A stretch of 64,000 nucleotides of DNA. Source: Halobacillus halophilus DSM 2266. Its GTDB lineage: Bacteria; Bacillota; Bacilli; Bacillales; Halobacillaceae. Below the pieces are notes generated by a model. That model did not search any database. It was given only the letters and a program-made list of their open reading frames with translations, and had not been told where the DNA came from. Location: contig NC_017668.1 of the NCBI RefSeq assembly GCF_000284515.1, positions 1,550,001 through 1,614,000 on the forward strand, read 5' to 3'. Each line of letters starts with the position of its first letter. The stretch's first letter is position 1. A program made the translations under genes and the position numbers. Below, in pieces: positions 7,172-46,721 of this stretch.

Positions 7172-7843
7172 AGCTCACGATACTGGAAGACTCAGTTTCG
7201 AGATATTTATGAGAATTAGGTCCTGCGGGGGACGATTTCGCTTTCCGGCCCTGCATGACGCAGGGTCGTTCGACGTTTCCACACGACGTGGCGTTCTTAG
7301 TCGAACCTCATTTGTCACCGATCATGTTCATCTCGCAGGAGTCTACATCTTCCCCTTCCGGACCTGGCCGAATAAGAAACTCGAAACCATTTAAGACATC
7401 GACGATTTGATGAGAAAAAAGCATGTGGTCATGAGGCTATTTCATGCTATAACGATGTGAAATAGCTTGTCATAAAAGCATTTTAGACCAGTTAAGAAGG
7501 AGAGCATGCTTTTCTTCTGGAAGGTTCCGTTATTCTCCCGCGGCTGAGTGGGTGGGGAAATAGCGAGACTCCCATGGGAGAAGGAACTAGGTGAGATCCC
7601 GCAGGGAGTGAAACGAGCGAGGAAGCTCATGGTAAAAGGAGGATCGACTAAGGTCGCCACGTCCTGTGGCAACGTCGATCGACCCTACGTCGTGTAGGGC
7701 CATAGGAAAGCGAGTTATTTCCCCACCAACTCTCATTTTTTTATGGCAACGGATCCAGTATATCTCGAAACTGAGTCTTAAAGTAGACGGTCCTTTAGTT
7801 TAATAAATCGCTTATGAATATTCCACAACAATATTTTACAAGG
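7172..7843 (+). repeat. R1: composite palindromic mobile repeat, copy 1
   Basis: A 672-bp non-coding element bounded by a candidate 7-bp duplication TTAGAAA (7165-7171 and 7844-7850). The 20-mer AAGACTCAGTTTCGAGATAT at 7187-7206 is perfectly inverted at 7760-7779. Inside are an A module (7218-7365), a spacer, and a B module (about 7530-7750) flanked by inverted TCCGTT / AACGGA. Each module contains a 60-bp nested hairpin block (7247-7307 and 7642-7701). The left terminal repeat is shortened relative to R4 and R5. ORFs inside it are artefacts of the palindromes. Confidence 0.8.
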
Positions 7844-7938
7844 TTAGAAAAAGGATTGAGATCAAGCGGCAGATTTGAAATAATAGATAAGTTCTTACAT
7901 GTAACGAACAGGGATTTAACCAGGAGGGATCATCATCC

Positions 7939-8169
7939 ATGAGCAAAATCCGTCAGCTGTTTAGCGGACCCATATTTTCCGAAAAAATTGATCGTTTTAT
8001 TCTGATCCCGCTCGCCCTAATCGGAGTTCTTCTTGCCAGGTATTTAAAATCAGCCGGGTGGGCCACAGGTGATGCTTTAGGCATTCTGGTGCTGGCAGCT
8101 ATCCTGTTGACCATCGGCTTGCGAATCATAGGTGCTCGTTGGAAGGAAAAGAAAAACATTACCCATTAA
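7939..8169 (+). CDS. 76-residue membrane protein
   Basis: Two hydrophobic segments (about 20-34 and 45-63) and a basic tail RWKEKKN. AGGAGGGATCATCATCC gives a strong ribosome site. Not recognised as a named family. It lies immediately downstream of repeat R1 and ends at an intrinsic terminator, so it is a single-gene unit. Confidence 0.65.
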   Translation: MSKIRQLFSGPIFSEKIDRFILIPLALIGVLLARYLKSAGWATGDALGILVLAAILLTIGLRIIGARWKEKKNITH

Positions 8170-8203
8170 AAGCCGTCTTTTCATAGAAAAGGCGGTATTT
8201 TTT
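8168..8203 (+). terminator. Intrinsic terminator
   Basis: AAAGCCGTCTTTT pairs imperfectly with AAAAGGCGGTATTTTTT across a five-base loop, directly at the end of the 76-residue membrane protein gene. Confidence 0.75.
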
Positions 8204-8407
8204 AAAGGTATGAGTACCAAAAGGGTCGATTATTAAATCAGGACGATCAGTAGAAAAGTGGAAATTAAATTAGATTAACTTACAGTTACTGGCGCAATAA
8301 TCCAGCAACATTTTATCGAAACCAAATCTGGATGAATAGGTGGACGATTTTTTTGATATGTTCCTCCTTACATAGTTAGGAGTTAGACAGGAAGGGGTGG
8401 GGTTATT

Positions 8408-8803
8408 ATGAAGAAAATATACGGAGGCTTTTCAATAATTTTTATAACCCTTCTATTAATTAGTTGTTCAGAACGTAATCAATATATTCTAGAAGGTGAA
8501 AGTGATCATTGGGAAGCAAAATTAAAAGTAACAGTAAAGGCAAATGACGCAACATCTAAAGATTTTATTATTAACTATAAAGGAGAATTAAATCAATTAG
8601 CTGACATAAGCAGGTTAGAATATTCTTATAAAAGTGCTGCATCTAGTGGAAAATCGGAGATTAACTTTAATGGCAAACCTCCCCAGAGAAAATCGTTTAC
8701 TCATCATAGTGGAAGCAGTGGCAGTTCCTTTGACAGTGAACAAACTGTAAATGTGACTGTTAAATGGGATGGAAATGAAGAAAAAATGAAGCTGAAAGAA
8801 TAG
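8408..8803 (+). CDS. Small lipoprotein, unknown function
   Basis: A lipoprotein signal peptide ends in the lipobox LLISC at residue 20, so the mature protein should be lipid-anchored on the outer face of the membrane. The mature part (about 110 residues) is rich in Lys, Ser and Asp, with a pattern of alternating hydrophobic residues (WEAKLKVTVKA, DFIINYKGEL, VNVTVKWDG) that suggests a beta-sandwich. GGAAGGGGTGGGG precedes the ATG. Followed closely by a small membrane-protein gene at 8851, probably in one transcript. No named family recognised. Confidence 0.7.
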   Translation: MKKIYGGFSIIFITLLLISCSERNQYILEGESDHWEAKLKVTVKANDATSKDFIINYKGELNQLADISRLEYSYKSAASSGKSEINFNGKPPQRKSFTHHSGSSGSSFDSEQTVNVTVKWDGNEEKMKLKE

Positions 8804-8850
8804 TGTAATTTTCATATGGGCAATATTATTTCATAAAGGAAGTGGGGAAC

Positions 8851-9036
8851 TTGTTAAAATCTGAAGTTGCCAACAGGTTCATATCATTATTAGTACTTTT
8901 AACATTAGTAATTTTTGTGTTGTTCAACGGCGCCAGGAGTGAAGGTAGTCCGGCATTAATCATAATAATTACTATTGCGGTTTTGGGTACAGCTTATCAA
9001 TTATATAAAATTTTTAAACTAAAGAAAGAAAAATAG
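8851..9036 (+). CDS. 61-residue two-helix membrane protein
   Basis: Two hydrophobic segments (about 10-24 and 34-50) and a strongly basic end FKLKKEK. AAAGGAAGTGGGG is best spaced for the TTG at 8851; a GTG at 8842 would sit too close to it. It lies 47 bp after the lipoprotein stop and ends at a terminator, suggesting a two-gene operon. Function unknown. Confidence 0.55.
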   Translation: MLKSEVANRFISLLVLLTLVIFVLFNGARSEGSPALIIIITIAVLGTAYQLYKIFKLKKEK

Positions 9037-9082
9037 CTGCGAAAAAAGGTCAGCTTATTGTTTGCATGACCTTTTTGTAGCA
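9036..9082. terminator. Bidirectional terminator
   Basis: AAAAAAGGTCA and TGACCTTTTT form a stem with flanking GCTGC/GTAGC pairing. It separates the convergent small membrane protein gene and the SDR gene. Confidence 0.8.
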
Positions 9083-9095
9083 GAATAGATGTTTT

Positions 9096-9959
9096 TTATC
9101 CGTTTACAATTATGCCACCGTTCACATGCAGCATCTGACCGGTGACGAAACTTGCATCCTGGCTCGCAAGATAGACGTAAGCCGGAGCTACTTCCTTTGG
9201 CTGACCTGGGCGCTCCATCGGATTGTCAGAACCGAATTCGGCAACCTGCTTCCGGTCAAAGCTTGAAGGGATCAGAGGGGTCCAAATCGATCCTGGAGCT
9301 ACTCCGTTCACACGAATTCTCTGCCCAACAAGGGATTTCGCAAGCGCACGGGTGAAGGACGTGATGGCTCCTTTTGTGGATGTATAATCAATCAATTGCT
9401 CGTTTCCCTCATAGGCCGTAACAGAGGATGTGTTGATGATCGAGCTTCCTTTTTTCATATGTGGGAGTATGGCTTTTGTCATGTAGAAATAGGAGAAGAT
9501 ATTGACACGAAACGTGCGCTCAAGCTGTTCATTCGAGATATCCAGAACACTGGTCTGCGGATATTGCACGGCTGCGTTATTGACCAGCACATCGACCTGA
9601 CTGAATTTACGCTTAATTTGTTTTAAGGCATCTGTACAAAAATCAGGATCAGCAATATCTCCGCTGATCAGGAGACAGGTACGTCCTTCTTGTTCAATAA
9701 AGCGTTTCGTATCCTCGGCATCCTGATGTTCATCAAAGTAAAGGACGGCTATATCGGCTCCTTCCCGTGCGAAATGCAGACTTACCGACCTGCCTATGCC
9801 GCTGTCTCCGCCCGTTATCACTGCAATTTTCCCCTGGAGCTTTCCGCTGCCCTGGTAATTTTCATCAATATATTCTGGGAGCGGCTTCATTTCATATTCG
9901 AATCCCGGCTGACGGTTTTGATGCTGTTTCGGCTGAATTTCTTTCTTTTGGTTGTTCAT
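9096..9959 (-). CDS. SDR-family oxidoreductase (YhdF/YhxC-type)
   Basis: A 287-residue short-chain dehydrogenase with an N-terminal extension (about 45 residues, polar, KPLPEYIDENYQGSGKLQGK) that is characteristic of the Bacillus YhdF/YdaD/YhxC group, several members of which are general-stress proteins. Seen are the cofactor motif TGGDSGIGRS, the NNAA motif (VDVLVNNAAVQYP), and a catalytic Ser...Tyr-x3-Lys in SSVTAYEGNEQLIDYTSTKG. The substrate is unknown. I chose the ATG at 9959 (MNNQKK), after GGGAGGTCGCCTC, over an upstream in-frame ATG without a ribosome site. Confidence 0.9.
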   Translation of the reverse strand: MNNQKKEIQPKQHQNRQPGFEYEMKPLPEYIDENYQGSGKLQGKIAVITGGDSGIGRSVSLHFAREGADIAVLYFDEHQDAEDTKRFIEQEGRTCLLISGDIADPDFCTDALKQIKRKFSQVDVLVNNAAVQYPQTSVLDISNEQLERTFRVNIFSYFYMTKAILPHMKKGSSIINTSSVTAYEGNEQLIDYTSTKGAITSFTRALAKSLVGQRIRVNGVAPGSIWTPLIPSSFDRKQVAEFGSDNPMERPGQPKEVAPAYVYLASQDASFVTGQMLHVNGGIIVNG

Positions 9960-10145
9960 GAGGCGACCTCCCAAATAGTGAATAGCTATTTCTAAGGTAC
10001 CCATTAGGTCGGAGAATATTTGCGCAACTCCAGTTAGTAATTGAAAGATCTATTTCATTTAGCGAATGCTTATATCTTCCAGTTTAATTTGTACTTTGTT
10101 GTGATAAAATAAGAACAAACGTTCGGTGAGAAAGGAAGGTACCTC

Positions 10146-10379
10146 ATGGATGGCTTGTTTGCACGATCTCTGGATAAAAACGAGAAGCTGGTGGTCATCT
10201 ATATGGACAGCCGGGGCGAGGTCTCCCAGCGTTCTATCCGGGTGATGGATATACGTGGCGAAGATATTTTAGTTCATTGTTTTGCGAGAGAAAAGGTAAG
10301 AACGCTTAAAAAAGACAGAATTCTGTCTGTATTTCCTGCAAGCGCTGTAAAGCGAAGAAGAAGTGCCGCAATGGAATAG
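10146..10379 (+). CDS. WYL-like domain miniprotein
   Basis: The 77 residues consist almost entirely of one small beta domain with the pattern LVVIYMDSRGEVSQRSIRVMDIRGEDILVHCF...RTLKKDRILSVFP, which resembles the WYL fold found as a ligand-sensing module in transcription regulators and CRISPR/defence regulators. There is no HTH, so it would act alone or with a partner. Start after GAAAGGAAGGTACC. It lies alone between the SDR gene (divergent) and another small gene. Function not known; the WYL assignment is by pattern only. Confidence 0.65.
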   Translation: MDGLFARSLDKNEKLVVIYMDSRGEVSQRSIRVMDIRGEDILVHCFAREKVRTLKKDRILSVFPASAVKRRRSAAME

Positions 10380-10501
10380 ATCGCTCTATGTGTTCAGAAG
10401 TGGTTAATAGATTTTTTTAAGTTCAATGTATTTACCATCATAGTCCTTCTCATTTCCGCATATCCTACAACTAACGAAATGAAAGTAAGGAGAGGGATAG
10501 G

Positions 10502-10735
10502 ATGGGCTTCACTTATGGAAAAAGAGAGTTAATGCAGGATTTGCAAAGGGTGTTTGCCAAGCATAATGTCCAGTCCATTAAAGTCAATAAGCCAGGCACA
10601 CTGTTTAAAATAGAGTCAGATGGATCGATGAAAGTGGAAGTAGGGGCAACGATCACGGCCTTTGATTGCAAACCAGGTGAAAAACCGGTGAACAAATTCA
10701 GAGTCGTAAACGGTGGGAATCAGAAAAAACAGTAA
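10502..10735 (+). CDS. 77-residue conserved-looking hypothetical protein
   Basis: A compact soluble protein with alternating charged and hydrophobic residues (TLFKIESDGSMKVEVGATITAF) suggesting a small beta-rich fold. AAGGAGAGGGATAGG gives a strong ribosome site. Followed by a good terminator. I do not recognise the family; no membrane segment, signal peptide or metal motif. Confidence 0.6.
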   Translation: MGFTYGKRELMQDLQRVFAKHNVQSIKVNKPGTLFKIESDGSMKVEVGATITAFDCKPGEKPVNKFRVVNGGNQKKQ

Positions 10736-10742
10736 ATCAATC

Positions 10743-10780
10743 AGCGCGTTTGACCGTAAGTGTGGTCAAACGCGCTGTTT
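10743..10780. terminator. Intrinsic terminator between convergent genes
   Basis: AGCGCGTTTGACC and GGTCAAACGCGCT form a 13-bp perfect stem with an 8-base loop, followed by a short T run. Confidence 0.85.
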
Positions 10781-10822
10781 ACGTTTCCCTATTCTTATCG
10801 CCTGTAATGAAGCTATTCATTT

Positions 10823-11644
10823 TTAGTAATAAATAAACGCAATCACTGCCGCTAAACCGATACGGTAAAAGGCAAAAGGTAATAATTTAACTCTATTGAT
10901 CAGCTTTAGAAAAAATCGAATCGTGATCAAAGCAAAAACAAAGGCGCTGAAAAAACCGATCGCGAAGAGTGGAAGGGCCTGGGCTGTGAAATACTCCATG
11001 TTATCAATTAGAGAAAGGCTGCTTGCGCCAAGCATAATGGGCACCGCCATAATAAATGTAAAGTCTGCAGCCGAGCGGTGGTTCATACCAACAAGTACTC
11101 CGGCAGAGATGGTCGAACCTGAGCGGGAGAAGCCGGGCCATAAGGAAAAGCACTGCATCAGTCCAATTAGAAGAGCCTGACGGTAAGTGATCTGATCCAC
11201 ACTCTTTAATGAGGCGTTGCGGACTCCATAAAGATCAGCAAAAATCATAAAAAAGCTTCCTAGCAGGAGGCCTATGATGACGGTTTCGACCGTAAATAAA
11301 TGTTCATCGATATAGTCCTCAAAAAGAAATCCGAGCAGAGCTGCCGGAAGCAGCCCTGTCAGGATATGACTGATTTTAAGCCGGCTGGAGTTAGCCTGCA
11401 CACGAGATCCTGCCCCCAGCAAATCTATAAACCGGTGTCTAAATGTAATGACGACCGCAAGAATAGAACCAAGCTGAATAACGATTTTAAACGTGTTTGC
11501 TGTATAGTAGCCTAAAAATTCGCGAGAATGTAACCACATTTCATCCACGATAATCATATGGCCCGTAGAAGATACGGGTGCGAATTCAGTTAATCCTTCA
11601 AACATCCCTAGAAGCATCACTTTTATGACTTGAATAAAGTCCAT
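10823..11644 (-). CDS. uppP: Undecaprenyl-diphosphate phosphatase
   Basis: UppP (BacA) removes a phosphate from undecaprenyl pyrophosphate so the lipid carrier can be reused for peptidoglycan and wall polymers; loss sensitises cells to bacitracin. The 273 residues show the family motifs GMFEGLTEFAPVSSTGHM (about 13-30) and the SLWPGFSRSGSTISAGVLVG segment (about 165-185), with about eight membrane helices. The start follows AAGGGGTTCAGA. The DedA gene ends 10 bp upstream, so the two form an operon with related roles in carrier-lipid recycling. Confidence 0.95.
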   Translation of the reverse strand: MDFIQVIKVMLLGMFEGLTEFAPVSSTGHMIIVDEMWLHSREFLGYYTANTFKIVIQLGSILAVVITFRHRFIDLLGAGSRVQANSSRLKISHILTGLLPAALLGFLFEDYIDEHLFTVETVIIGLLLGSFFMIFADLYGVRNASLKSVDQITYRQALLIGLMQCFSLWPGFSRSGSTISAGVLVGMNHRSAADFTFIMAVPIMLGASSLSLIDNMEYFTAQALPLFAIGFFSAFVFALITIRFFLKLINRVKLLPFAFYRIGLAAVIAFIYY

Positions 11645-11654
11645 TCTGAACCCC

Positions 11655-12266
11655 TTACGCGCTTAGTATTTTTTTACGAATGATAATGAACATCAGGAGG
11701 ACGCATCCTGTTCCAAGTCCGATATACGTGATGGTTGAATAAACCTCCAAAAGCCGGGAGACTTCACTCCACGATTCACCCATCAAAGCACCCACCAAAA
11801 TGAGGATAGTATTCCAGACCATTGTGCCAAGGATGGTGAACAATAGAAATAAGCTCAGCTTCATGTTCGCCATTCCGGCAGGCAAGGAAATCAGACTGCG
11901 GACGAGCGGAATCATCCGCCCGAGCAGCACCGCCCATATTCCGTAGCGCTGAAACCATGATTCTACTCTCTGGACGTCTTCTTTTTTTATGCGAAGTCTA
12001 TGTCCATGCCGCTCCACAAAGGATTCTAACTTTTCTACATCCATCAAGGAGCCGATGCCATAAAGCACAACCGCTCCTGCAAGAGATCCGGTCGTTGAGA
12101 CTACAATTACCCCACCTATCGATAGGCTGGCAGCTTGAGTCATAAATCCGCTGAACGGAAGAATAACCTCAGATGGAATGGGAGGAAAGATATTCTCTAC
12201 GGCCATCATGATAAAGATACCGGCATACCCATAGTGACTCATAAATTCAGTAATCCAATCCGCCAT
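11655..12266 (-). CDS. DedA-family membrane protein (putative undecaprenyl-phosphate flippase type)
   Basis: A 203-residue protein with the DedA/SNARE-associated signature: ENIFPPIPSEVILPFSGFM near the N-terminus, GRMIPLVRSLISLPAGMANMKLSLFL in the middle, and several membrane helices. Members such as Bacillus UptA translocate undecaprenyl phosphate across the membrane. It lies 10 bp upstream of uppP on the same strand, which strongly suggests this role here (inference). GGAGGTACACA precedes the ATG. A small membrane protein lies upstream on the same strand. Confidence 0.9.
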   Translation of the reverse strand: MADWITEFMSHYGYAGIFIMMAVENIFPPIPSEVILPFSGFMTQAASLSIGGVIVVSTTGSLAGAVVLYGIGSLMDVEKLESFVERHGHRLRIKKEDVQRVESWFQRYGIWAVLLGRMIPLVRSLISLPAGMANMKLSLFLLFTILGTMVWNTILILVGALMGESWSEVSRLLEVYSTITYIGLGTGCVLLMFIIIRKKILSA

Positions 12267-12337
12267 TGTGTACCTCCATTTTCAGTGTTAAGCGGGCTTA
12301 AGCAGGGTTTATACCAGCTTTAAGCACGTCCTTCTAT

Positions 12338-12523
12338 TTATAATCCTATGATTTGTTTCAGTTCTTTTATGTTAACCATACTCCAGTGAAATTCAATCCA
12401 GTAGTCCTGCCAATGCACACCTGCAAACAGTCCACTCGTCCAGATTCCGCCAAACAGTAATAAGAAAATAACGAACGTAACTGAATAGTAGGTGATCCAA
12501 TCTTTCATGTCTGAATTTTTCAT
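12338..12523 (-). CDS. 61-residue membrane protein
   Basis: One strong hydrophobic segment (about 13-33, SVTFVIFLLLFGGIWTSGLF) and an aromatic-rich remainder (HWQDYWIEFHWSMVN). AAAGGAGATTGAA gives a good ribosome site. It precedes the DedA-uppP pair on the same strand with a 71-bp gap, so it might be the first gene of that transcript. No family recognised. Confidence 0.6.
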   Translation of the reverse strand: MKNSDMKDWITYYSVTFVIFLLLFGGIWTSGLFAGVHWQDYWIEFHWSMVNIKELKQIIGL

Positions 12524-12631
12524 TTCAATCTCCTTTAAATGTAGTTAAAAACGCACACGAAAAATAAGCTTTCCTATAGTGCTCAAAAGAAAAGCTGTGA
12601 AGCCTCTTCGTAAAAAGGGAGACGAATGTAT

Positions 12632-12958: not shown

Positions 12959-13055
12959 GTCCTTCTCCCTCCTTTCCAGTTATTAGATATACAATACCCC
13001 AAGCCTGTTTGAATGGGAAGCTTTTTTTAAAATATACGGAAGGGGAGGCTCATCC

Positions 13056-13941: not shown

Positions 13942-13946
13942 ATTAT

Positions 13947-14061: not shown

Positions 14062-14330
14062 TTCGAGGTGAACCAACTTGGAAAAAATGAACCTTCCAAT
14101 TTTTTAATGCAAATTCCGTGAGAGGGATACCTTCCTTGAATGAAATGGATATAATAAAGGGACTTCGTTTTGGGAAGGACTATGCTCAAGTTGAATTTCC
14201 AGAAGTGCTATTGGAAAGTAATACATACTTGTTCGACAAAAATCTAGCTTGAATCCACATATTGTTATTAGAGGAAAAAGAGTTCTTCCCATTTGTTCAT
14301 CTCGAGATCAAGTCTTCAAGTAGATGGGGC
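14062..14330 (+). pseudogene. Eroded coding remnant
   Basis: Broken frames read as protein-like fragments: FRGEPTWKK, then SLNEMDIIKGLRFGKDYAQV...LFDKNLA ending at a TGA at 14250, then EEKEFFPFVHLEIKS. Together they look like one decayed gene interrupted by stops and frame changes, rather than random sequence. I cannot name the ancestor. It is followed by a bidirectional terminator. Confidence 0.25.
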
Positions 14331-14352
14331 TTTAGTTGAATAAGCTCAATAT

Positions 14353-18618: not shown

Positions 18619-18728
18619 GACTCTTATCTTTCAGACAGAAAATGTCTGCTGGAATGAGCACCTTGTTTATCAAACAGGTTGCCGCGGGATCAAAGGACCA
18701 GTTTCCTCCACCGCTCTCGATAAGAAAA
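18619..18728 (-). promoter_or_regulatory. SAM-I riboswitch (S box)
   Basis: On the minus strand the RNA reads CTTATCGAGAGCGGTGGAG, then ACTGGTCCTTTGATCCCGCG, then GGCAACC, and closes with AGATAAGAG. These are the conserved blocks of the SAM-I aptamer: P1 formed by CTTATC/GATAAG, the GAGNNNGGNGGAG start, the ACTGGCCC-like block and the GGCAACC core. With the downstream terminator it should switch the OsmC-symporter operon off when S-adenosylmethionine is abundant. The aptamer core GATCCCGCGGCAACC departs slightly from the commonest GATGCCCGGCAACC. Confidence 0.93.
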
Positions 18729-20655: not shown

Positions 20656-20689
20656 ATCTTAGTCGAACATCCCTTGTGCTGAGCCTCGA

Positions 20690-20900
20690 GCAAGCTCTGC
20701 GGAGTTTCACCGATCATGTTGATGAGGCCAATGCAAAACTCCATTCTACCCAGTGGAGTTGGTAACGTTTGTTGTTGCTTCTCACGAATCGCTTGTCGGT
20801 GGATGCTTGCCGCGGGCACGGCCTCAGCTAACTTGGTTAAGAAGATCACTTGACCAAGTGGATCTTCGGCTCGCGCTGTTCCCGCAGGCGTCACCACCGA
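20690..20900 (+). repeat. Diverged fragment(s) of the A module of the palindromic repeat
   Basis: Pieces such as TGTGCTGAGCCTCGAGCAAG, TTTCACCGATCATGTTGATG, TTGCCGCGGGCACGGCCTCA and GTTCCCGCAGGCGTCACCAC match the A-module pattern (TGTGCTGAGC..., CACCGATCATGTTTATC, CGCGGGCA..., CCCGCAGGAGTC) seen in R3 and R5. It is broken up and probably two fragments side by side. No terminal repeat is seen here. Confidence 0.55.
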
Positions 20901-21294
20901 ACGCTCATCGTGGAATCAACGCAAACCCATCTAAAAAGAGGGGGATTCTTGAACTTTAAAAAAAGAAAAGCGGCTTGGAGGGAAGAAATAGATCCGTCCA
21001 GACTGCTTTTTTGGAGTCTACCTTTCATCAATTTTCAGTTTTTCAACGTCCTCATGTTCATCCCGCATGAGTCTACATCGTCCCCCTACGGACCTGGCCG
21101 AATCAGAAACTCGAAACCATTTAAGACATCGACGGGTTGATAAGAAAAAGAATGTGATCATGAGTCTTTTTTTATGCTATAACGATGTGAAATATCCTGT
21201 CATAAAAGCATTTAGGAACGATTAAGAAGGAGAGCATTCTATCTTATAAAAGCGTCCGTTATGCTCACTCGACTGGGTTGGTGGGGAAATGGCG

Positions 21295-22848
21295 CATACC
21301 CGTCAAGCTAAGCTCTATAATTTCGTAACTCCCTTATAAACGTTACTCTTTTAGATGAAATTTCTAAAGGAGGATAATTTTATGGATCTTAGTAAACACC
21401 TTCGGTCTATGGCTCAAGCTATTACAGAAACTTTAGGAGATCATTCTCTACGACAAACAGCTAAAGAAACGGGATTTTTGAAACGGACCAGTAAACTTAA
21501 ACCAGAAGCATTCTTAAGTTTATGCACCCTCTTAAAAGATTCCGTGGGCAAAAACACCTTACCTAACTTATGTAGCCAAATCTCCTACGAATTCCATACT
21601 TTTATCTCTAAACAAGCTTTGCATGAACGTTTTAACGATAAAGCGGTTTCCTTTCTAAAACAAGTATATAAGCAATTAGCCGATAAGCAGGAAATAACTT
21701 CGTCGGTTTTGGAACATCATTCATTATTCTCGCGCCTTAGAATTATGGATGCGACATCTTTTCGTCTGCCCAGCTCTTACTCCGATTATCCAGGAGTACA
21801 GGGGCATGGAGTTAAAGTACAACTAGAATATGAATGGCTCAGGGGCAAGTTACTCTACCATAAGATTCAAGCAGAAGCTAAAAGTGATAAAGATGCCGCA
21901 CGTGATCAGATGGAGTCATTGGAACCAGGGGATCTACTGTTACGGGATTTAGGTTATTATTCGGCAAGATTAATAAAGGAGATGGAGAGTAAAGGGGCAT
22001 TTTTCATTAGCAGAGTGCCGAGCCAAACCAAGTTTTGGACCGGGAGTTCGAAAGAAGGTTGGATACAAATTAAGCCTGAGGAAGATCTGAAACATAAGGT
22101 TTCGGGAGAAACCATTGATTATGGATTCATAAAAGTGGGAGGAGATTCACGAAGTTCCTATGTGGCTCGCATTGTAGCTCAGAAGCTTACGCTTCAACAA
22201 CAAAAGCAACGGGAAAGAGCGTTACATTTAAAAAGGCAGAAAGGTCACCAGACCCTTTCTGCCAATCAAAGAACTCAAATTCAAATCCTTGTGACCAATG
22301 TAACACAGGAAGATTTGGCCGCTCAAGACCTTTACCCTTTGTATTCCATAAGGTGGCAGGTAGAGATCTTATTTAAAGCTTGGAAATCCCTATTTGAAAT
22401 GGATGATGTCCGAAAAATAAATCAAGATCGATTGGAATGTCATTTATATGGAACGTTAATTGAGATTCTTCTCTCTTCCATGGTGACTTTCCAGTGTCGT
22501 CACTATTTATATTGGAAACACCGAATAGAAGCAAGTGAATATAAGTGCATGGATATCGTGAAACAGGCTTTGCCATATCTAGTGTCTCCAATAAAATCTG
22601 ATTCGAAGAGTGTCGTAAAGATATTAGAAGCTATCTTCGAAAACGCTAGGCGACACGGCAGGAAAGACCACAAAGAAAAACATGAAAGTCCGTTCGATGT
22701 TTTAGGATTAACTTATAAATAAAAGATTCCCTTCTTTTTATTACTGACTCCTTTAGGAGTCAATATAACCTTGATTGGAAATATGTGTAATTGAAGGATT
22801 GGACCACTGCTTATCTAGAATTATTCACTTACTAGCTTGACGGATATG
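21295..22848 (+). mobile_element. IS231-like insertion sequence (IS4 family), intact, with 11-bp target duplication
   Basis: The 1554-bp element is flanked by perfect direct repeats GGGAAATGGCG (21284-21294 and 22849-22859), the 11-bp length typical of IS231. The left end CATACCCGTCAAGCTAAG and the inverted right end CATATCCGTCAAGCTAGT resemble the IS231 terminus CATGCCCATCAACTTAAG. It carries one full-length transposase. It landed inside module B of repeat R2, whose sequence resumes in register after the element. The near-perfect duplication suggests a recent insertion. Confidence 0.95.
21382..22722 (+). CDS. IS4-family (IS231 group) DDE transposase
   Basis: A 446-residue transposase that cuts and moves its element. 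The catalytic acidic residues sit in LRIMDATSFRLPSSY (about 116-130), LLLRDLGYYSARL (about 189-201) and the family's Y-(2)-R-(3)-E-(6)-K signature in YSIRWQVEILFKAWKS (about 325-340). I start at the ATG at 21382 because AAAGGAGG precedes it; an ATG at 21355 has no ribosome site. The frame is intact, so the element may be active. It is transcribed in the same direction as the repeat. Confidence 0.95.
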   Translation: MDLSKHLRSMAQAITETLGDHSLRQTAKETGFLKRTSKLKPEAFLSLCTLLKDSVGKNTLPNLCSQISYEFHTFISKQALHERFNDKAVSFLKQVYKQLADKQEITSSVLEHHSLFSRLRIMDATSFRLPSSYSDYPGVQGHGVKVQLEYEWLRGKLLYHKIQAEAKSDKDAARDQMESLEPGDLLLRDLGYYSARLIKEMESKGAFFISRVPSQTKFWTGSSKEGWIQIKPEEDLKHKVSGETIDYGFIKVGGDSRSSYVARIVAQKLTLQQQKQRERALHLKRQKGHQTLSANQRTQIQILVTNVTQEDLAAQDLYPLYSIRWQVEILFKAWKSLFEMDDVRKINQDRLECHLYGTLIEILLSSMVTFQCRHYLYWKHRIEASEYKCMDIVKQALPYLVSPIKSDSKSVVKILEAIFENARRHGRKDHKEKHESPFDVLGLTYK

Positions 22849-22867
22849 GGGAAATGGCGAGACTCCC

Positions 22868-23077
22868 CGTTTAAAAGCGGAAGCACCCTGGCCAGCGGCG
22901 TATGGACTGGACTGAGCTGGTTGAGATAAAGAAAACATGAAGAGCGAAGCGATTCGATGTTGCCTTATCGTACAGAAGCGAGGGAAGTCTCACTAGACGC
23001 TAGGTGCTGGAGCTGGAAAGCACTCCATGACGTTTAGGCATTAATTTTATTACTCCCTTCTTATGAAGTGTAAGAAC
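22868..23077 (+). repeat. Module C inserted in module B of R2
   Basis: About 210 bp beginning TTTAAAAGCGGAAGCACC, with GCTGGAGCTGGAAAG in its later half and ending near GAAGTGTAAGAACG. It interrupts the sequence CGAGACTCCC/GGGAGAAGG that is continuous in R1, R3 and R4. The inverted copy lies in R5 at 52486-52690. The pattern GCGGAAGC...GGTGCTGGAGCTGG resembles a short repeat class known in several Bacillus genomes, by memory only. Confidence 0.7.
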
Positions 23078-23225
23078 GGGAGAAGGGACTAGGTGAGATC
23101 CCACAGGGAGTGAAACGAGCGAGGAAGATACTGGTAATAAGGAGGATCGACTAAGGCCGCCACGTCCTGTGGCAACGTCGATCGACCCTACGTCGTGTAG
23201 GGCCATAGGAAAGTGTTCAAATGTG

Positions 23226-23328
23226 GAATCACCCCTAAAGACACGACCAGCATAAGCCGACCATCAAAAGGATTGTGGTTTTTCAATCCGTTGATGAGCG
23301 GCTTATGGCTCGAGTGTCTGGGTGATGG
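23226..23328 (+). repeat. Module E: 100-bp hairpin in R2
   Basis: A near-perfect long hairpin: ATCACCC pairs with GGGTGAT, AGACAC with GTGTCT, CATAAGCCG with CGGCTTATG, ATCAAAAGGATTG with CAATCCGTTGAT. It is inserted between the D hairpin block and the end of module B, a position where R1 and R3 have continuous sequence. An inverted copy lies at 46003-46110 with a compensatory change in the apical stem. Confidence 0.75.
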
Positions 23329-23544
23329 AACAAGACGAGTTATTTCCCTACCAGCTCCCACCTCATATTGTAACGGACTCAATTTATCTCGAAACTGAGT
23401 CTTCAACAAACCGGCCCTTTAGCGCAACAAGCTTCGTTGGAAATCATCAGCCCTGTTTAACAGAAGAGGCATTTTGCTAATTAACTCGATTCCTTATTCC
23501 ATTTGCCATTGAATCGGTATTGTCCTGCTTTAAGAAGTACAAAG

Positions 23545-38569: not shown

Positions 38570-38574
38570 AGCTT

Positions 38575-40602: not shown

Positions 40603-40604
40603 CG

Positions 40605-40654
40605 AAAAAAGCCGTGCCATGATGGTTTCATTTCCATCAAGGCACGGCTTTTTT
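40605..40654 (+). terminator. Terminator of the siderophore operon, T-tract abuts repeat R3
   Basis: AAAAAGCCGTGCC and GGCACGGCTTTTTT form a 13-bp stem with a 22-base loop. The T run ends exactly where repeat R3 begins. Confidence 0.9.
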
Positions 40655-41234
40655 AGCTCTGTTAAATGTTACTAATGATATTTATTGCAAAATAGGGGCC
40701 GTACTGCGGAAGACTCGATTTAGAGAAATTTTGTGAGAGGAAAGGTCCTACGGGGGACGATTTCGCTTTCCGTGGGCATGTGCTGAGCCTCCTCAGTCTT
40801 CGCCTTCCGGGGTCTCACCGATCATGTTTATCCCACAGGAGTCTTCATCATCCCCCTACGGACCTAGCCAAATTGGAAGTTCAAAACCACTTCAAACATC
40901 ACCTGAATGGATGAGGCATTAGACCATGCGGTTTTCTACCTTATTTTAGGATGTAACAACCCGCAATTGCCTGTCATAAAAGCATTTAATCCAGATTGAG
41001 CAGGATAATCTCCTTCATCCAGAAGGGTCCGTTCACAAAATTAGAGTTGGGCTGGTGGGGAAAGGGCGAGACTCCCATGGGAGAAGGAACTAGGTGAGAT
41101 CCCGCAGCGAGTGAAACGAGCGAGGAAGCTCACCGTTCCCCCATAGGAAAGCGAGTTATTTCCCCACCAACCCTTATCCATCTAAAGTAACGAGCCAATC
41201 GCTTTACAGTAAAAACAATACTGGGTAATAGAGT
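40655..41234 (+). repeat. R3: composite palindromic mobile repeat, copy 3
   Basis: A 580-bp copy flanked by CTTTTTT on both sides (40648-40654 and 41235-41241). The left end AGCTCTGTTA and inverted right end ACTCTATTA match the family termini imperfectly. Inside are GGAAGACTCGATTTAGAGA, module A (40725-40865, the form without a D hairpin), a spacer, and module B (41060-41175) without D or E. Low complexity of the flanking T runs makes the exact borders less certain. Confidence 0.7.
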
Positions 41235-41262
41235 CTTTTTTTTTAATTAAATTACAACCTGT

Positions 41263-42897
41263 TTACAGCGAATGGCCGAAATAATTCACTAAGGCTTTCG
41301 TCAGCTGATCCGTTTCCGTAATGGAAGTGTGGAGCAGCACATAAGCGTCAGGCCGGATAACCACCATATCACCCGGCGTTACATGCAGCCGTTCATTAGA
41401 CTCTTCATTCAAATCCATATACAATTCAGAATTCATGTCCGTTATTTCCCTGGGGTCATCTACTTCATCAAACGTAATAAAAAGCGGCTTCAGCATGTCT
41501 CCCACACGACTGTTAAACGCCACGACCGCATTCCTGACGGCTTCCTGATACTGGGGAGCATCTCCTCTCCCTGCCATAATTAAATAGAGAAATGGCTCTT
41601 CCCGGAGCATGGAGTAGAGCGTTTTTTCTTCTTTTGCCGGAGTTAGAAAAGAAACATCAGGGACACGGTTGCCGGATTCGACCTTCTTCACATTGGTGAA
41701 TTTCCTGAAGCTTTTCGCAAATTTGGTAAAAGAATAATCCACATCGAGCTGGGCCATGTTTTCCGTTATTTTTGTCTGGACTTTTTTATTGGGAAGAAGC
41801 CACTTCATTCCTTGATTGCGAGCTTTAATCCCGTAGTGACTCTTAATCGTCATCCCTTTCATAAGGTAACTGGTTTTCTTAATGACTTCCTCCGCGACAG
41901 GAGCTCTTTCCGCATGATAAGAATCCAGCAGTGTTTCATTCAAGTTATGCTGCACGGTATAGGCAAGCTTCCATCCCAGGTTCATCGCATCCTGTATGCC
42001 TACGTTCATACCCTGTCCTCCGATTGGATTGTGAATATGGGCTGCGTCTCCTGCGAGAAATACATTTCCTTCGCGATAAGAGCTCGCCTGCCTGTGAGAT
42101 GCGGAGAAACTTGAGATCCAGTAGGGGTCGTGCAGGGAGAGGGTTTCCGGATAAATTTCCGCCAGTGAATCTTCCATATCTGCAAGGGTTACTTCTTCTG
42201 GGAAGTCGTCGCCTTGCTTTTTGTAATCAATGACGATGACCCGGGTGTATTCGCCTTGAAAGGGAGCGAGAAATACGAGACCGCGGTCGCTGCTTGTGAG
42301 CGAAATGTCGTTTTTGGGTGCCGCGAGCTTTACGTCAGCAAGCATGACGTTCACTTCCTCCGATTCCCCTGTGAAAGGAATTTGCAGCAGATCCCGTGTG
42401 GTGCTGTGGGCTCCGTCACATCCAACTGCATAGCGTGCGGTTATCGTTTCTTCACCGTTTGCTTTTCGCACTGAAGCATGAACGACTCCTTCCTTTTGCT
42501 CCAGTCCTGTGAGCGTCATCTCTCTCTCAACCCGGTGGGGAGACAATCCACTTTCGAGAATTTCCTCTGTCCTGCTTTGAGGAATCACGTTCACAAACGG
42601 GAAATCAGCGGAAACGCTGATATTCGTAAAATCCAGGACAGCCAGCAGATCTTCATTGTAATGAAAGGTAATCTCTTTATACGGGGTCCCGGCCTGCAGA
42701 AATGATTCGGAAAGGCCGAGCAAATCCATCATTTCCAGGGTGCGGGGATGCATAACGAGGGCTTTAGAGTAGCGGGATCTTTCTTTGTTCTGATCAATAA
42801 TCCGGTAGCGGACACCATAGCGTTCCAGCTGATTAGCAAGCGCCAGACCGCTTGGTCCTGCGCCGATAATTAATATATCTGTATGGGTTTCCTGCAT
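41263..42897 (-). CDS. FAD-dependent aromatic monooxygenase (PheA/TfdB/MhpA type)
   Basis: A 544-residue flavoprotein hydroxylase. Seen are the dinucleotide motif ILIIGAGPSGLALANQLERY (about 8-27), the DG motif GCDGAHSTTRDLL (about 158-170), and GDAAHIHNPIGGQGMNVGIQ (about 280-299), diagnostic of the PF01494 class A monooxygenases. A thioredoxin-like C-terminal domain (about 400-544) is present as in phenol and resorcinol hydroxylases. It should hydroxylate an aromatic ring with NAD(P)H and O2. AAGGAGAGGTTTTAC precedes the ATG. It is divergent from a MarR-MFS pair that probably shares its control. Confidence 0.9.
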   Translation of the reverse strand: MQETHTDILIIGAGPSGLALANQLERYGVRYRIIDQNKERSRYSKALVMHPRTLEMMDLLGLSESFLQAGTPYKEITFHYNEDLLAVLDFTNISVSADFPFVNVIPQSRTEEILESGLSPHRVEREMTLTGLEQKEGVVHASVRKANGEETITARYAVGCDGAHSTTRDLLQIPFTGESEEVNVMLADVKLAAPKNDISLTSSDRGLVFLAPFQGEYTRVIVIDYKKQGDDFPEEVTLADMEDSLAEIYPETLSLHDPYWISSFSASHRQASSYREGNVFLAGDAAHIHNPIGGQGMNVGIQDAMNLGWKLAYTVQHNLNETLLDSYHAERAPVAEEVIKKTSYLMKGMTIKSHYGIKARNQGMKWLLPNKKVQTKITENMAQLDVDYSFTKFAKSFRKFTNVKKVESGNRVPDVSFLTPAKEEKTLYSMLREEPFLYLIMAGRGDAPQYQEAVRNAVVAFNSRVGDMLKPLFITFDEVDDPREITDMNSELYMDLNEESNERLHVTPGDMVVIRPDAYVLLHTSITETDQLTKALVNYFGHSL

Positions 42898-43052
42898 GTA
42901 AAACCTCTCCTTACAAGTTGTATTTAATTCATGATTGCCTCTTCCTGGTTCTTTTTCCAGAAAGATCGGTTTCCTAACCTATTTCTCTAAACGAGTGTGT
43001 TTCAAACCGTCATCTATTTCATTTCCATTTTTCGGGTAAAAACGATACAATT

Positions 43053-43068
43053 ATTTACCTGGGTAAAT
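43053..43068. promoter_or_regulatory. Palindromic operator in the monooxygenase-marR intergenic region
   Basis: ATTTACCTGGGTAAAT is a 7-2-7 inverted repeat just before the marR ribosome site; a half site CGGGTAAA lies 20 bp upstream. MarR repressors bind such palindromes, so this is probably the autoregulatory operator and may also act on the divergent gene. Confidence 0.65.
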
Positions 43069-43087
43069 AAAAAGGGAGATGTAATAG

Positions 43088-43510
43088 ATGATCGATACAC
43101 ATGACTTATTTCACCTGCTTCATCAGCGGGTTCGTTTCGTTACGAAAGAGTTCAATCAGCAGCTGAGCGCTCACGGTTTATATCATTCCCAGTGGGGGAT
43201 TATGTATTGTCTGGAGCGATTCGGACCTATGACGCAAACCGCCATTTGGAAATACTTAAACGTAGAAGCACCCACGGTCACACGTACCATTACCCGCATG
43301 GAAAACAATGACTGGGTGATCCGCAGGCAGGGCGGGGACAAGCGTGAACGTGTAGTTGAATTGACAGATAGAGCCAAGAAAAAATATGAGCAGGTCAATC
43401 AGGCCGTCTACCAATATGAACAGGAAACCATCAGCCGGCTGACCCCTGAGGAAGTCGATCAATTTTACAGTATTCTTCAAAAGCTCGGACCGGAAGGGGG
43501 TGAAGGATGA
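43088..43510 (+). CDS. MarR-family transcriptional regulator
   Basis: A 140-residue winged-helix repressor. The HTH lies around GPMTQTAIWKYLNVEAPTVT (about 53-72), then the wing RRQGGDKRERVVELTDRAKKK (about 87-107) and a dimer helix near the C-terminus. MarR proteins often sense phenolic ligands, which fits the divergent aromatic monooxygenase and the coupled exporter. AAAGGGAGATGTAATAG precedes the ATG. Its stop overlaps the MFS start by 4 bp. Confidence 0.92.
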   Translation: MIDTHDLFHLLHQRVRFVTKEFNQQLSAHGLYHSQWGIMYCLERFGPMTQTAIWKYLNVEAPTVTRTITRMENNDWVIRRQGGDKRERVVELTDRAKKKYEQVNQAVYQYEQETISRLTPEEVDQFYSILQKLGPEGGEG

Positions 43511-44703
43511 CCGCCTCACATCGCTCTATCTGGACAAAAAGCTTTATGAGTGTATCGTTTACACAGTTTTCGGTTTTTCTGGTATTTTATGCTCTGTTGA
43601 CCACGCTGCCCATTCTAGTGATTGAAGAAATGAACGGGACTCAATCTGAAGGGGGCATCACGGTGACGGCTATGCTGCTTGCGGCCATCCTGATCCGTCC
43701 CTTTTCCGGAAAAATAATGGAACGCTTAGGTAAGAAAAAGACCCTTACGACGAGTATTATGATATTTACCGCTACCACATTCTTTTATTTAAGCGTGGAC
43801 CAGTTTGCAGCTTTACTGGGACTCCGGTTTTTCCACGGGCTGTCATTTGGCCTGTTTACAACGGCAAGCGGCGCGATCGCTGCTGATGTAATCCCACCTG
43901 AACGACGGGGAGAAGGACTTGGTTATTTTGCGATGTCCATGAATCTTGCGGTCGTCGCCGGTCCGTTTCTAGGCTTGACTCTTTTACAGTATGCACCATT
44001 TTCGATCCTTTTCATCGTACTTAGTCTATTGATAGCAGGTGGATCGCTGTCTGCGTTTCTTGTGCAGGTGCCGCCGGGAGCAGAAGCGGATCCAGCCCCG
44101 TCAAAAGACAGATTTTCTATACAGGATCTTATTGAACTAAAAGCGCTGCCGATCGCTGTTATCAGCAGCTTCATTGCTCTTGCGTATTCCAGTATCATTT
44201 CCTTTTTATCCGTGTATGCCAATGCTATCGGGTTATCTGGAGCATCCAGCTACTTCTTTCTCGTGTTTGCACTTGCGATGCTGTTATCACGTCCGTACTT
44301 AGGAAGAGCTTATGATGCCAAAGGACCGAAATATGTGATCCTGCCGTGCCTGTTACTGTTTTCAGCAGGATTACTACTCATCAGCATCACGAGTACGGCC
44401 TGGATGCTGTTGCTCTCAGCGGCCATCATCGGACTGGGCTACGGTACATTGCTTCCAAGTTTCCAAACGATGGCCATTCAGTCCGCGCCTATTACGAGAA
44501 GCGGCCATTCTACGGCTACTTTCTTCATGCTCTATGATATAGGAATAGCTGCGGGTTCATTCCTATGGGGACTTGTCGCTGCCGGGGCTGGATATCAAAC
44601 CCTTTATACGGCAAGCGCTATCGTTGTCCTTGCGGTTATGGTGCTCTTCAGCGTACAGCAGGCCAGACAGCCAGCACCCGTTGCAAGCAATCAGGCTTCC
44701 TGA
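43507..44703 (+). CDS. MFS transporter, probable drug/aromatic exporter
   Basis: A 398-residue major facilitator with 12 hydrophobic segments. The MFS signature between helices 2 and 3 is visible as RPFSGKIMERLGKKK (about 58-72), and the repeat loop as RPYLGRAYDAKGPK (about 261-274). Translationally coupled to the marR gene, so export of the regulator's ligand is likely (inference). No substrate can be assigned. Confidence 0.88.
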   Translation: MTASHRSIWTKSFMSVSFTQFSVFLVFYALLTTLPILVIEEMNGTQSEGGITVTAMLLAAILIRPFSGKIMERLGKKKTLTTSIMIFTATTFFYLSVDQFAALLGLRFFHGLSFGLFTTASGAIAADVIPPERRGEGLGYFAMSMNLAVVAGPFLGLTLLQYAPFSILFIVLSLLIAGGSLSAFLVQVPPGAEADPAPSKDRFSIQDLIELKALPIAVISSFIALAYSSIISFLSVYANAIGLSGASSYFFLVFALAMLLSRPYLGRAYDAKGPKYVILPCLLLFSAGLLLISITSTAWMLLLSAAIIGLGYGTLLPSFQTMAIQSAPITRSGHSTATFFMLYDIGIAAGSFLWGLVAAGAGYQTLYTASAIVVLAVMVLFSVQQARQPAPVASNQAS

Positions 44704-44850
44704 GAAACTCCATATGGAATCTCATAATCTGAAGGATTCTTTATGGAAGATCAATAGGGTCCAAGGTCCTGCCATCCATTCTATCATTCATTTTTATTAT
44801 CATCAGCAGCTTGACCAATGATAAGTAACTTGGTATATTTTTAATAGTTT

Positions 44851-45016
44851 AAAAGGGGAGTAGCTTTAACAGTATTGTCGTCATTACAGAGTGAATACTT
44901 TCACTCTCGGCACTACTGGCGACTGCATAGTTGCTAGCAAGACCTTTGCCACTGGGTGAAGGTCTCTATTTTTTGAGGTCTTTACCATGAAAAAGTGGTA
45001 AAGACCTCTGTTTTTT
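44851..45016 (+). promoter_or_regulatory. yybP-ykoY Mn2+ riboswitch with terminator upstream of terC
   Basis: AAAAGGGGAGTAGC opens the RNA, a long variable arm follows, then CTACTGGCG, and the closing block GACCTTTGCC...GGTGAAGGTC (44941-44964). These are the hallmark elements of the yybP-ykoY manganese riboswitch. A terminator, GAGGTCTTTACC with GGTAAAGACCTC and TTTTTT (44975-45016), forms the expression platform. Mn2+ binding should prevent termination and turn on terC, a known target class. Confidence 0.9.
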
Positions 45017-45038
45017 GAAAGAGAAGGGAGAATATCAA

Positions 45039-45824
45039 GTGGATTCAATTTGGTTGGAATATGGATGGACATTACTAATACTGATTGGTCTCGAGGGACT
45101 GTTATCTGCAGATAATGCGCTTGTTTTGGCGGTGATCGCCAAGCACTTACCTGAAGATGAGAAAAAGCGCGCAATCAATTACGGAATTATAGGAGCCTTT
45201 ATTTTTAGATTTGGAGCCTTATTCGCGATTTCGTTTATAGCGAATGTGTGGCAGGTTCAGGCTATTGGAGCTGCTTATCTCATTTATTTAGGTGTGAGGA
45301 GCCTGATTGGCAGGACTCACGATGAAAAAGAATCCACAGATGATAAGCCAGCGAAAGGAAAAGGCTTCTGGCCTACGGTTGCCAAAATCGGCCTGGCCGA
45401 TCTCGTATTTGCGATCGATTCCATACTCGCTGCCGTCGCTCTTGCTTTAGCTCTTCCGAATTCCCCACTTCCGAATTTTGGCGGAATGGACGGAGGTAAA
45501 TTCATTGTTGTCATCATTGCAGGAATTGCCGGACTGGTTCTGATTAAGTATGCGGCCACATGGTTTGTTCAACTTCTCAGAGTCCGTCCAAGTTTAGAAA
45601 CAACGGCCTATTTAATCGTAGCCTGGGTGGGTATAAAATTAGCTGTTATTACCTTGTCCCACAAAGACGTAGGCGTACTGGATGAACACTTTGCTCACAG
45701 TGTGGGCTGGACAGTTACATTCTGGGCGGTGCTGCTTTCTGTAGCGATAGGCGGCTGGTTCTGGTCAGGCAGACATTTGCGTAAAGATGAAAATAAAGAA
45801 CTATACAGAAATTCCGGATCTTAA
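45039..45824 (+). CDS. TerC-family membrane protein, probable Mn2+ exporter
   Basis: About 261 residues with seven to nine membrane segments and conserved acidic residues in EGLLSADNALVLAVIAKHL (about 20-38) and LADLVFAIDSILAAVALAL (about 122-140), the TerC metal-site blocks. TerC homologues such as YceF/YkoY of B. subtilis help load Mn2+ into exported enzymes and protect from Mn excess. Translation starts at GTG 45039 after AGAAGGGAGAATATCAA. The Mn2+ riboswitch immediately upstream supports this role. Confidence 0.93.
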   Translation: MDSIWLEYGWTLLILIGLEGLLSADNALVLAVIAKHLPEDEKKRAINYGIIGAFIFRFGALFAISFIANVWQVQAIGAAYLIYLGVRSLIGRTHDEKESTDDKPAKGKGFWPTVAKIGLADLVFAIDSILAAVALALALPNSPLPNFGGMDGGKFIVVIIAGIAGLVLIKYAATWFVQLLRVRPSLETTAYLIVAWVGIKLAVITLSHKDVGVLDEHFAHSVGWTVTFWAVLLSVAIGGWFWSGRHLRKDENKELYRNSGS

Positions 45825-45831
45825 TGATCGG

Positions 45832-45863
45832 TAAGCCCTCCATTTGATGGGGGGCTTTTTTTA
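45832..45863 (+). terminator. Terminator of terC, T-tract abuts repeat R4
   Basis: AAGCCCTCC and GGGGGGCTT pair around ATTTGAT and run into seven T residues. Repeat R4 begins directly after TTTTTTA, which is duplicated at its far end. Confidence 0.85.
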
Positions 45864-46721
45864 GGTTCTGTTAATGTTTATTGTTTTTTCATAAGAGACT
45901 TATTACGCAATAGGGCCGGTTACTGTAAGACTTGATTTCGAGATGTTTTTGGTCCGTTGCCATAAAAGAAGGAGAGTTGGTGGGGAAATAACTCGTCTTG
46001 TTCCATCACCCAGATAGACACTCGAGTCATAAGCCGCTCATCAACGGATGGAAGAACCGCCATCCTTTTGATGGTCGGCTTATGCTGGTCGTGTCTATCG
46101 GGGTGATTCCACATTTGAGGCCCTACACGACGTAGGGTCGATCGACGTTGCCACAGGACGTGGCGACCTTAGTCGATCCTCCTTTTACCAGGAGCTTCCT
46201 CGCTCGTTTCCACTCCCTGCGGGATCTCACCTAGTTCCTTCTCCCATGGGAGTCTCGCCATTTCCCCACCAACTCAGCCGCGGGAGAATAACGGACCCTT
46301 CCAGAAGAGAGTATGCTCTCCTTCTTAACTGGTCTTAAATGCTTCTATGACAGGCTATCTTTACATCTTTATAGCATGAATGCAGGCTCATATTCCCATG
46401 CTTTTTTAGTCATCAAGAAGATATCTTAAGTGGTTTCAAGGTTCTCATTCGGCCAGGTCCGGAGGGGGACGATGTAGACTCCTGCGGGATGAACATGATC
46501 GGTGAGATCCCGCAGGGCTGCAAAGCCCGAGGAAGCTCACCACAAATGAGGTTCGACTAAGAACGCCACGTCGTGTGGCAACGTCGAACGACCCTGCGTC
46601 GTGCAGGGCCGGAAAGCGAAATCGTCCCCCGCAGGACCTTCCGCTCAACAAATGTCTCGAAATCAATTCTTCAAGTAATGGGAGCTTTACTTTAGAATTA
46701 AAACTGAAGTTTAGCTAAACC
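45864..46721 (-). repeat. R4: composite palindromic mobile repeat, copy 4 (inverted orientation)
   Basis: An 858-bp element flanked by perfect TTTTTTA duplications (45857-45863 and 46722-46728). Termini GGTTCTGTTAATG and inverted GGTTTAGCTAAACT continue as an imperfect terminal repeat of about 85 bp. Module B (about 45952-46300, with E at 46003-46110 and D at 46119-46182) precedes module A (about 46450-46640, with a second hairpin block at 46549-46611), the reverse order to other copies. GGTCCGTT and AACGGACC flank module B. Confidence 0.85.
46003..46110 (-). repeat. Module E hairpin in R4
   Basis: Inverted copy of the hairpin at 23226-23328. The apical stem here is GGATGG/CCATCC where R2 has GGATTG/CAATCC, so both sides changed together. 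Other stem segments (AGACAC/GTGTCT, CATAAGCCG/CGGCTTATG) are kept. Confidence 0.75.

Follow-up and report, generated by a model that had tools for sequence, protein, structure and literature searches.

Bacillaceae-1 modules inside a transposed repeat element of Halobacillus halophilus: covariation of the hairpins and the strand that probably folds

The stretch of DNA analysed here (the window) comprises 64,000 nucleotides of Halobacillus halophilus DSM 2266, positions 1,550,001 to 1,614,000 of contig NC_017668.1; coordinates below count from its first letter. It holds five related blocks that belong to the Rfam family Bacillaceae-1 (RF01690), all five scoring between 58.7 and 70.1 bits, above the gathering score of 35. 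They come in two forms, D and D'. Form D lies at 7632..7698 on the plus strand (70.1 bits, with a predicted fold), at 23135..23201 on the plus strand (69.8 bits) and at 46122..46188 on the minus strand (70.1 bits). Form D' lies at 7250..7316 on the minus strand (58.7 bits) and at 46541..46607 on the plus strand (64.9 bits). The module has 67 nt. Its stem P1 contains an internal loop and encloses the hairpin P2; a second hairpin, P3, comes after it. The original prediction, made from the letters of the window, had marked 60-bp blocks at these five places and had read them as nested hairpins whose two arms changed together. The blocks are there, and the stems are as it described them, GATCGAC/GTCGATC versus GTTCGAC/GTCGAAC for the outer stem and CCCTAC/GTAGGG versus CCCTGC/GCAGGG for the second hairpin. 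The inner stem GCCAC/GTGGC, said to be common to both forms, is so in general, but in the copy at 7250..7316 one inner pair is broken (GCCAC/GTGGA).

The motif itself is already known. It is marked as RNA in a table of PMC2864571, as far as that source was available, and the available part of PMC9029176 counts it among the most abundant small-RNA families and states no function. Neither a function nor a settled strand is given in the portions at hand of PMC2864571, PMC4333381 and PMC9029176. What is new here is the transposed carrier of the module and a quantitative call of its strand. Compared with the family as filed in Rfam (PMC2864571, available portion), the window blocks pass the gathering score and share the two-hairpin structure. 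They differ in that they sit inside a transposed composite element in high copy number, that nearly all P3 loops of this genome have lost GGA, and that the evidence speaks for the complement of the filed strand.

How widely is the module spread? In this genome (4.17 Mb) at least 97 matches to RF01690 lie above the cut-off, a lower bound given by scoring the best 150 of 515 candidates. In the genus, 17 of 22 genomes carry it, with 0 to 97 copies per genome, and in the order 147 of 299 do. The Rfam model also gives a match in a laboratory strain of Bacillus subtilis. Other genera carry it in quite different surroundings. By eye, a copy stands directly upstream of an apparent 16S ribosomal RNA start at locus L211 and probably also at L257, and copies at L273 and L278 adjoin sequence resembling transfer RNA.

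In the window the D and D' blocks lie within composite elements, which end in GGCTCTGTTAAAGTTTATTG ... GTTTAACAGAGCC. The most informative is complete, 858 bp long (45864..46721, locus L002), with terminal inverted repeats; it carries D, D' and a third module, E, and 7 of the 8 positions are identical between its two flanking 8-mers. Another complete element of 827 bp (52297..53123, locus L039) gave no RF01690 match, and neither did one at approximately 40660..41230, recognised by sequence matches. An element with degenerate ends at approximately 7120..7840 (locus L003) carries D' and D, and in it D is enclosed by a U unit (GGTGGGGAAAT...ATTTCCCCACC, approximately 7551..7727, plus strand), of which 58 copies in the D-less form were found in the genome. 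A further element, at approximately 20680..23440 by sequence matches, is split by an insertion sequence (21295..22848, plus strand, ends set by eye). Its open reading frame of 455 aa at 21355-22722 encodes a DDE transposase (DDE_Tnp_1, PF01609, 97.6 bits); it is inserted in a U unit and flanked by an 11-bp duplication, GGGAAATGGCG, at 21284-21294 and 22849-22859. The E module is a long hairpin. At approximately 23228..23326 (plus strand, folded with RNAfold and compared over 26 genomic copies) its apical stem is GGATTG/CAATCC, and at approximately 46003..46107 (minus strand, from sequence and genomic copies) it is GGATGG/CCATCC, both as originally described. At 14296-14352 a sequence standing on its own matches the element's right end at 74% and is possibly a solo end.

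The same element recurs across the genome. The best 40 matches per end query, with a length limit of 1800 bp, yielded 55 elements that have both ends, 43 of them with both ends well defined; numbers of copies are therefore minimum values. The flanking 8-mers of these 43 agree at a mean of 6.28 of 8 positions, compared with 3.38 (sd 0.22) when partners are shuffled, and 21 of the 43 match at 7 or 8 positions. Lengths range from 192 to 1249 bp, with 20 of the 43 at 608-629 bp. D is missing from the consensus of 23 elements of 580-640 bp, whose inner halves are, by eye, related and inverted U units. Also by eye, most of the 97 D and D' copies are preceded by GAGGAAGCTC or a near form and followed by GGAAAG or, in part of the D copies, by the E module; on the left, at least 9 of the 97 are flanked differently. 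D thus rides in a multi-copy element that resembles miniature inverted-repeat transposable elements (MITEs) and was spread by transposition. Like MITEs, it has terminal inverted repeats starting with GGCTCT, as in ISL3, AT-rich target duplications of 8 bp and many copies; its interior is unusually structured, and no parent was found. The ISL3-family insertion sequence of this genome, whose ends are GGCTCT and which apparently makes an 8-bp duplication, was considered as parent. It was rejected, for its three nearly identical copies share little with the element beyond GGCTCT at the ends. Those three copies (1661101, 1967497 and 2128703 in this genome) are in their own right a sign of recent transposition. 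A plasmid collection queried with an 845-bp element returned no match, and in the open-access literature on repeats and MITEs of Bacillus relatives no title among the matches listed describes this element.

Two other kinds of repeat invite comparison. MITEs have reportedly been linked to the evolution of small RNAs in Coxiella, to go by the title of that study (PMC5896051); the bacteria are different, and the likeness is one of title only. The repetitive extragenic palindromic sequences and bacterial interspersed mosaic elements described in the accessible part of PMC3733652 are likewise extragenic, repeated, palindromic and often arranged as inverted pairs; their marks are a short palindrome with a GTAG or CGTC foot and a RAYT transposase. 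In architecture, which is all that is compared here, the present module is a 67-nt unit of two hairpins with conserved internal loops and not a single palindrome of 20-40 bp.

Is the fold of the module under selection? Copies were collected with a pattern that fixes the loop and internal-loop bases and both closing C-G pairs and no other stem base, which yielded at least 119 stretches, and also with a covariance model. A first alignment, A1, holds 94 of 124 distinct sequences; the other 30 were removed by hand, mostly for an interrupted second hairpin or as near-duplicates, and the statistics of A1 are flattering for that reason. In it 90.8% of the cells are paired, compared with 30-39% for slid structures, and 311 changes on both sides stand against 76.7 in shuffles. 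A model built from A1 served for two alignments fitted to the structure, A2 and A3. The covariance-model search of 163 loci gave 226 matches at E<=0.01, all of which were kept; 219 are distinct, some from the same genus. Over 305 sequences, these 219 from other genomes and 86 from H. halophilus, covariation was judged on a FastTree tree of 81 columns against our own version of the R-scape procedure, in which branch substitutions are shuffled over columns in 100 replicates. Twelve column pairs reached E<0.05, and 11 of them fall in the 17-pair structure. The remaining pair, 57-74, sits at the base of P3 and is out of register by one column, perhaps a subfamily effect. About 206 double changes that preserve Watson-Crick pairing are placed on the tree. 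Selection on the fold, as the original prediction proposed, is therefore well supported by an alignment of many copies with a tree-based null.

Inside this genome the covariation is of a simpler kind. The 97 copies give 86 distinct rows, 34 of D and 52 of D' by the base in column 18, and in 10 of 68 columns the two classes have different majority bases. Four of these columns belong to stems and make up both sides of two base pairs, 18-54 and 62-70, out of 17; in each of the four the majority base is shared by 91-100% of its class. For four random paired columns to form two complete pairs has a probability of 0.003. The covariation between D and D' in this genome is thus two old events and not many. 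That both sides changed together each time, as had been claimed, is right for these two pairs. It fails for E, where the 26 genomic copies include one-sided intermediates: GGATGG/CAATCC (2), GGATTG/CCATCC (1) and GGATGG/CCGTCC (2).

Paired changes could also arise without selection, if one arm of a palindrome is copied onto the other or by template switching. What speaks for such correction is that the double changes include some 38 strand swaps (GC<->CG or AT<->TA) and 58 further transversions, beside 110 transitions. On the terminal branches of other genomes, moreover, 92 double changes are nearly as many as the 95 changes to a non-Watson-Crick state (38 A.C, 16 G.U and 41 other), but these branches are longer and the count is not decisive. 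The recent copies of this genome say the opposite. Along their terminal branches a pair left the Watson-Crick state 51 times (23 A.C, 6 G.U and 22 other), and only 2 double changes preserve pairing; recent copies decay uncorrected, the fast form of correction is not seen in them, and the double changes date from older history. Correction should moreover leave no preference of A.C over G.U, of the kind described below, and no one-sided intermediates of the kind found in E. The internal-loop bases are kept as well: of 55 modules found by the Rfam model, at least 53 have TAA at columns 24-26 and all 55 have AAC or AGC at columns 46-48. We consider palindrome correction a quite improbable source of the paired changes.

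A further question is which strand folds. A G.U pair that is tolerated on the strand folding as RNA reads as A.C on the other strand, so the ratio of A.C to G.U calls the strand. On the strand filed in RF01690, the tree of the 305 sequences gives 89 changes from Watson-Crick pairs to A.C and 27 to G.U, with the same lean in all three helices. Under a strict filter that keeps inner pairs flanked by Watson-Crick pairs, the counts are 39.2 and 17.7 (p=0.0075), and against a null share of 0.56 expected from the mutation rates of the flanks p=0.038. From G-C pairs, G>A was inferred 63.4 times and C>T 16.2 times; from A-T pairs, T>C 22.5 times and A>G 7.8 times. The flanks show rates per thousand of 64.9 for G>A against 45.3 for C>T and 51.0 for T>C against 46.5 for A>G. 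Since this skew is weaker, mutation bias accounts for only part of the A.C excess. A count on the 124 unfitted sequences, over 11 pairs (P1 minus its outermost pair, plus P2) and with relatives each counted, gives 8 G.U and 34 A.C.

The mismatches beside the helices lean the same way. Beside P2, columns 30-46 hold C.A in 54 of the 55 Rfam-found modules, in 62 of 70 modules not found by the scan pattern (which fixes both of these bases, so that the count has to be taken there) and in 82 of the 86 own copies. A.C occupies columns 58-74 in 40 of the 55 and, in this genome, columns 57-75 in 83 of 86. Read on the complement, all of these are G.U pairs by which P2 and P3 become longer. It is also the complement that gives the better fold in 204 of the 219 modules of other genomes (53 of the 55 Rfam-found) and in 85 of the 86 own copies; for the copy at 7632-7706 the energies are -35.6 and -27.8 kcal/mol and the z-scores -5.6 and -2.4. 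By the A.C/G.U bias one strand matters more than the other, a bias that RNA and a single DNA strand would share alike. The bias and its direction are likely; it is probably the reverse complement of RF01690 that folds. According to the available part of PMC4333381, the discoverers were unsure of the strand, and the reverse complement matches a model of CsrA binding; the strand part of that proposal is supported here by evidence of a different kind.

What does the complement strand display? Its P2 loop contains GGA, as AGGAC or AGGAU, in 52 of the 55 Rfam-found modules, and its P3 loop contains GGA in 137 of 206 modules elsewhere. With the C-G pair that closes the loop, the usual motif is CAGGA(C/U)G. 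Taking pairing, strand and loops together, the explanation we favour is that selection keeps the pairing of one strand, likely that of a complement transcript with protein-binding loops, and that the motif is a passenger of the MITE-like element; we give it somewhat better than even chances. In such a scheme the module would be transcribed from the strand opposite to RF01690, and the transcript would fold into two hairpins, P1/P2 and P3. The C-G-closed loops, AGGAC or AGGAU in most genomes, resemble a protein-binding site present twice and may bind a protein, for which CsrA is the best candidate, though a guess. The element would do no more than spread the module; its left half carries D' and its right half D, which have diverged. 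Computation shows the family membership, the covariation and the carriage by a transposed element. That the folded strand is RNA is what we infer from this pattern.

Several points weigh against this explanation and should be noticed. The three signs for the strand are not independent, as all rest on wobble pairs, the strict test is only moderately significant, and G.T is tolerated in a DNA strand too. Two of the five measures taken on A1, the pairs with two-sided change and the number of pair types, are not above shuffles. Among 118 modules elsewhere, with neighbours called by a simple open-reading-frame rule and leaving aside 22 inside a called frame and 28 at locus edges, no orientation to the neighbours is preferred (upstream 60 co-directional and 58 opposed, downstream 61 and 57). 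Promoter-like sites in two scanned elements are at chance level only, and terminator-like sites number 3 where 1.0 is expected in one of them and 1 where 0.6 is expected in the other; one of these sites is a D' hairpin. The loops of this genome contain GGA in 66 of 86 P2 loops (one aligned out of frame) and in only 2 of 86 P3 loops, although csrA is present; the commonest P3 loop is ACGAC (53 of 86). Finally, the U unit leans the other way. On its plus strand the pairs common to both of its folds changed from Watson-Crick to G.U 27 times and to A.C 13.6 times, opposite to D; the other two pair sets give 58.6 against 26.6 and 40.0 against 17.6, and E leans weakly as U does (11.6 against 7.1).

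In this genome itself the gene upstream is co-directional with the complement strand in 47 of 76 cases, p about 0.05 by our own estimate. Elsewhere in the window, a S-adenosylmethionine (SAM) riboswitch (RF00162) was found at 18621-18726 on the minus strand with 90.6 bits.

Could the whole composite element be one large folded RNA, with D as a domain of it? U does fold well in consensus (57 distinct sequences of the 58 D-less copies), with two-sided differences between subfamilies, and in other genomes an E-like hairpin (AGCATAAG...CTTATG, a loose pattern) follows shortly after D in 20 of 219 modules. However, U, and weakly E, lean opposite to D of the right half, so the whole element does not point to one transcribed strand; D has other surroundings elsewhere, and much of the variation in U resembles a single split between subfamilies. 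A single large RNA therefore seems improbable to us.

Alternatively, the hairpins may be selected as single-stranded DNA, for example for recognition by a transposase during transposition or replication. Such a role would suit a motif present in so many copies within a transposed element, whose number varies this widely among the 22 genomes of the genus and whose orientation shows no bias relative to genes, and the tolerated G.T wobble would let the strand bias fit one DNA strand. DDE transposases make inverted-repeat ends with 8-bp duplications, and internal hairpins are not required. The ends of the present element, inverted repeats with 8-bp duplications, are of this DDE type and do not need hairpins within, and the occurrence of the motif in other genera in quite different surroundings means that it is not tied to one transposon. 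We hold selection on DNA hairpins to be doubtful, and return to the complement transcript as the favoured reading.

If the loops of such a transcript bind a protein, would it be CsrA? The repeat of CsrB is CAGGA(U/A/C)G, the same as the loop motif, and the consensus from systematic evolution of ligands by exponential enrichment (SELEX) is RUACARGGAUGU, with a loop one base longer (PMC7652899, available portion). This genome has one csrA match (E 4.9e-24), and csrA was found in 283 of the 299 genomes of the order. The proposal would be that Bacillaceae-1 is a CsrA-binding RNA of the CsrB/RsmZ kind that titrates CsrA and was spread by mobile repeats. The GGA of the P2 and P3 loops on the favoured strand agrees with it, and matches to CsrA sites on the reverse complement are reported in the accessible part of PMC4333381. 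RF01690 is also commoner where csrA is present (144 of 283 genomes, and 3 of 16 without it; for one family the figures are 2 of 4 with csrA and 0 of 15 lacking it), but these counts are uncorrected for kinship. In the copies read from csrA-bearing genomes, that family included, GGA is kept in 22 of 24 P2 loops.

The loss of csrA might have provided a sharper view. In genome G072, which gave no csrA match, GGA is absent from P2 in 10 of 10 copies. This case was dropped: G110, a csrA-bearing member of the same genus, had 28 matches, and of the 22 that were read 8 lack GGA in the same way, all belonging to the subfamily of G072; the loss in G072 is thus not a consequence of the loss of csrA. G139, of that genus too, keeps GGA in P2 in 8 of 8 copies. 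Against the CsrA proposal, G073 and G054, in which csrA was not found, retain GGA in 4 of 4 and 1 of 1 copies read, and the hairpin loop is 5 bases long, whereas ANGGAN has 6. In the GGA-less subfamily of G110 and G072, A1, G3 and A4 are retained in many P2 loops (ANGAY), and this may be what the loop really requires.

The module resembles the small RNAs of the CsrB/RsmZ type in the CAGGA(C/U)G of many of its loops, read on the favoured strand, and in belonging to a genome with csrA. Those RNAs differ in having about 18 sites; the module offers two hairpins in 67 nt, fewer than the many sites per transcript that mark the type, and its 5-base loops, in many scattered copies, are known from sequence alone. 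None of this type has been found in Gram-positives (PMC7430163). For these reasons CsrA is only a hypothetical partner, and a CsrA-titrating role is an unlikely, if attractive, reading of Bacillaceae-1. A bolder version would have the family misfiled by strand and be a CsrA-binding RNA of Gram-positives, whose sites are scattered by MITE-like elements, with a transposon setting the dose of a global regulator; we rate this lower still.

What do the results mean for the family? The transposed carrier helps to explain why the copy number ranges from 0 to 97 over 22 genomes of one genus, and the quantitative strand call points experimenters to the strand for probing. We know of no earlier CsrA-titrating RNA in Firmicutes. 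If the CsrA reading, first proposed in PMC4333381 as far as its available part tells, is true, Bacillaceae-1 would be the first one there.

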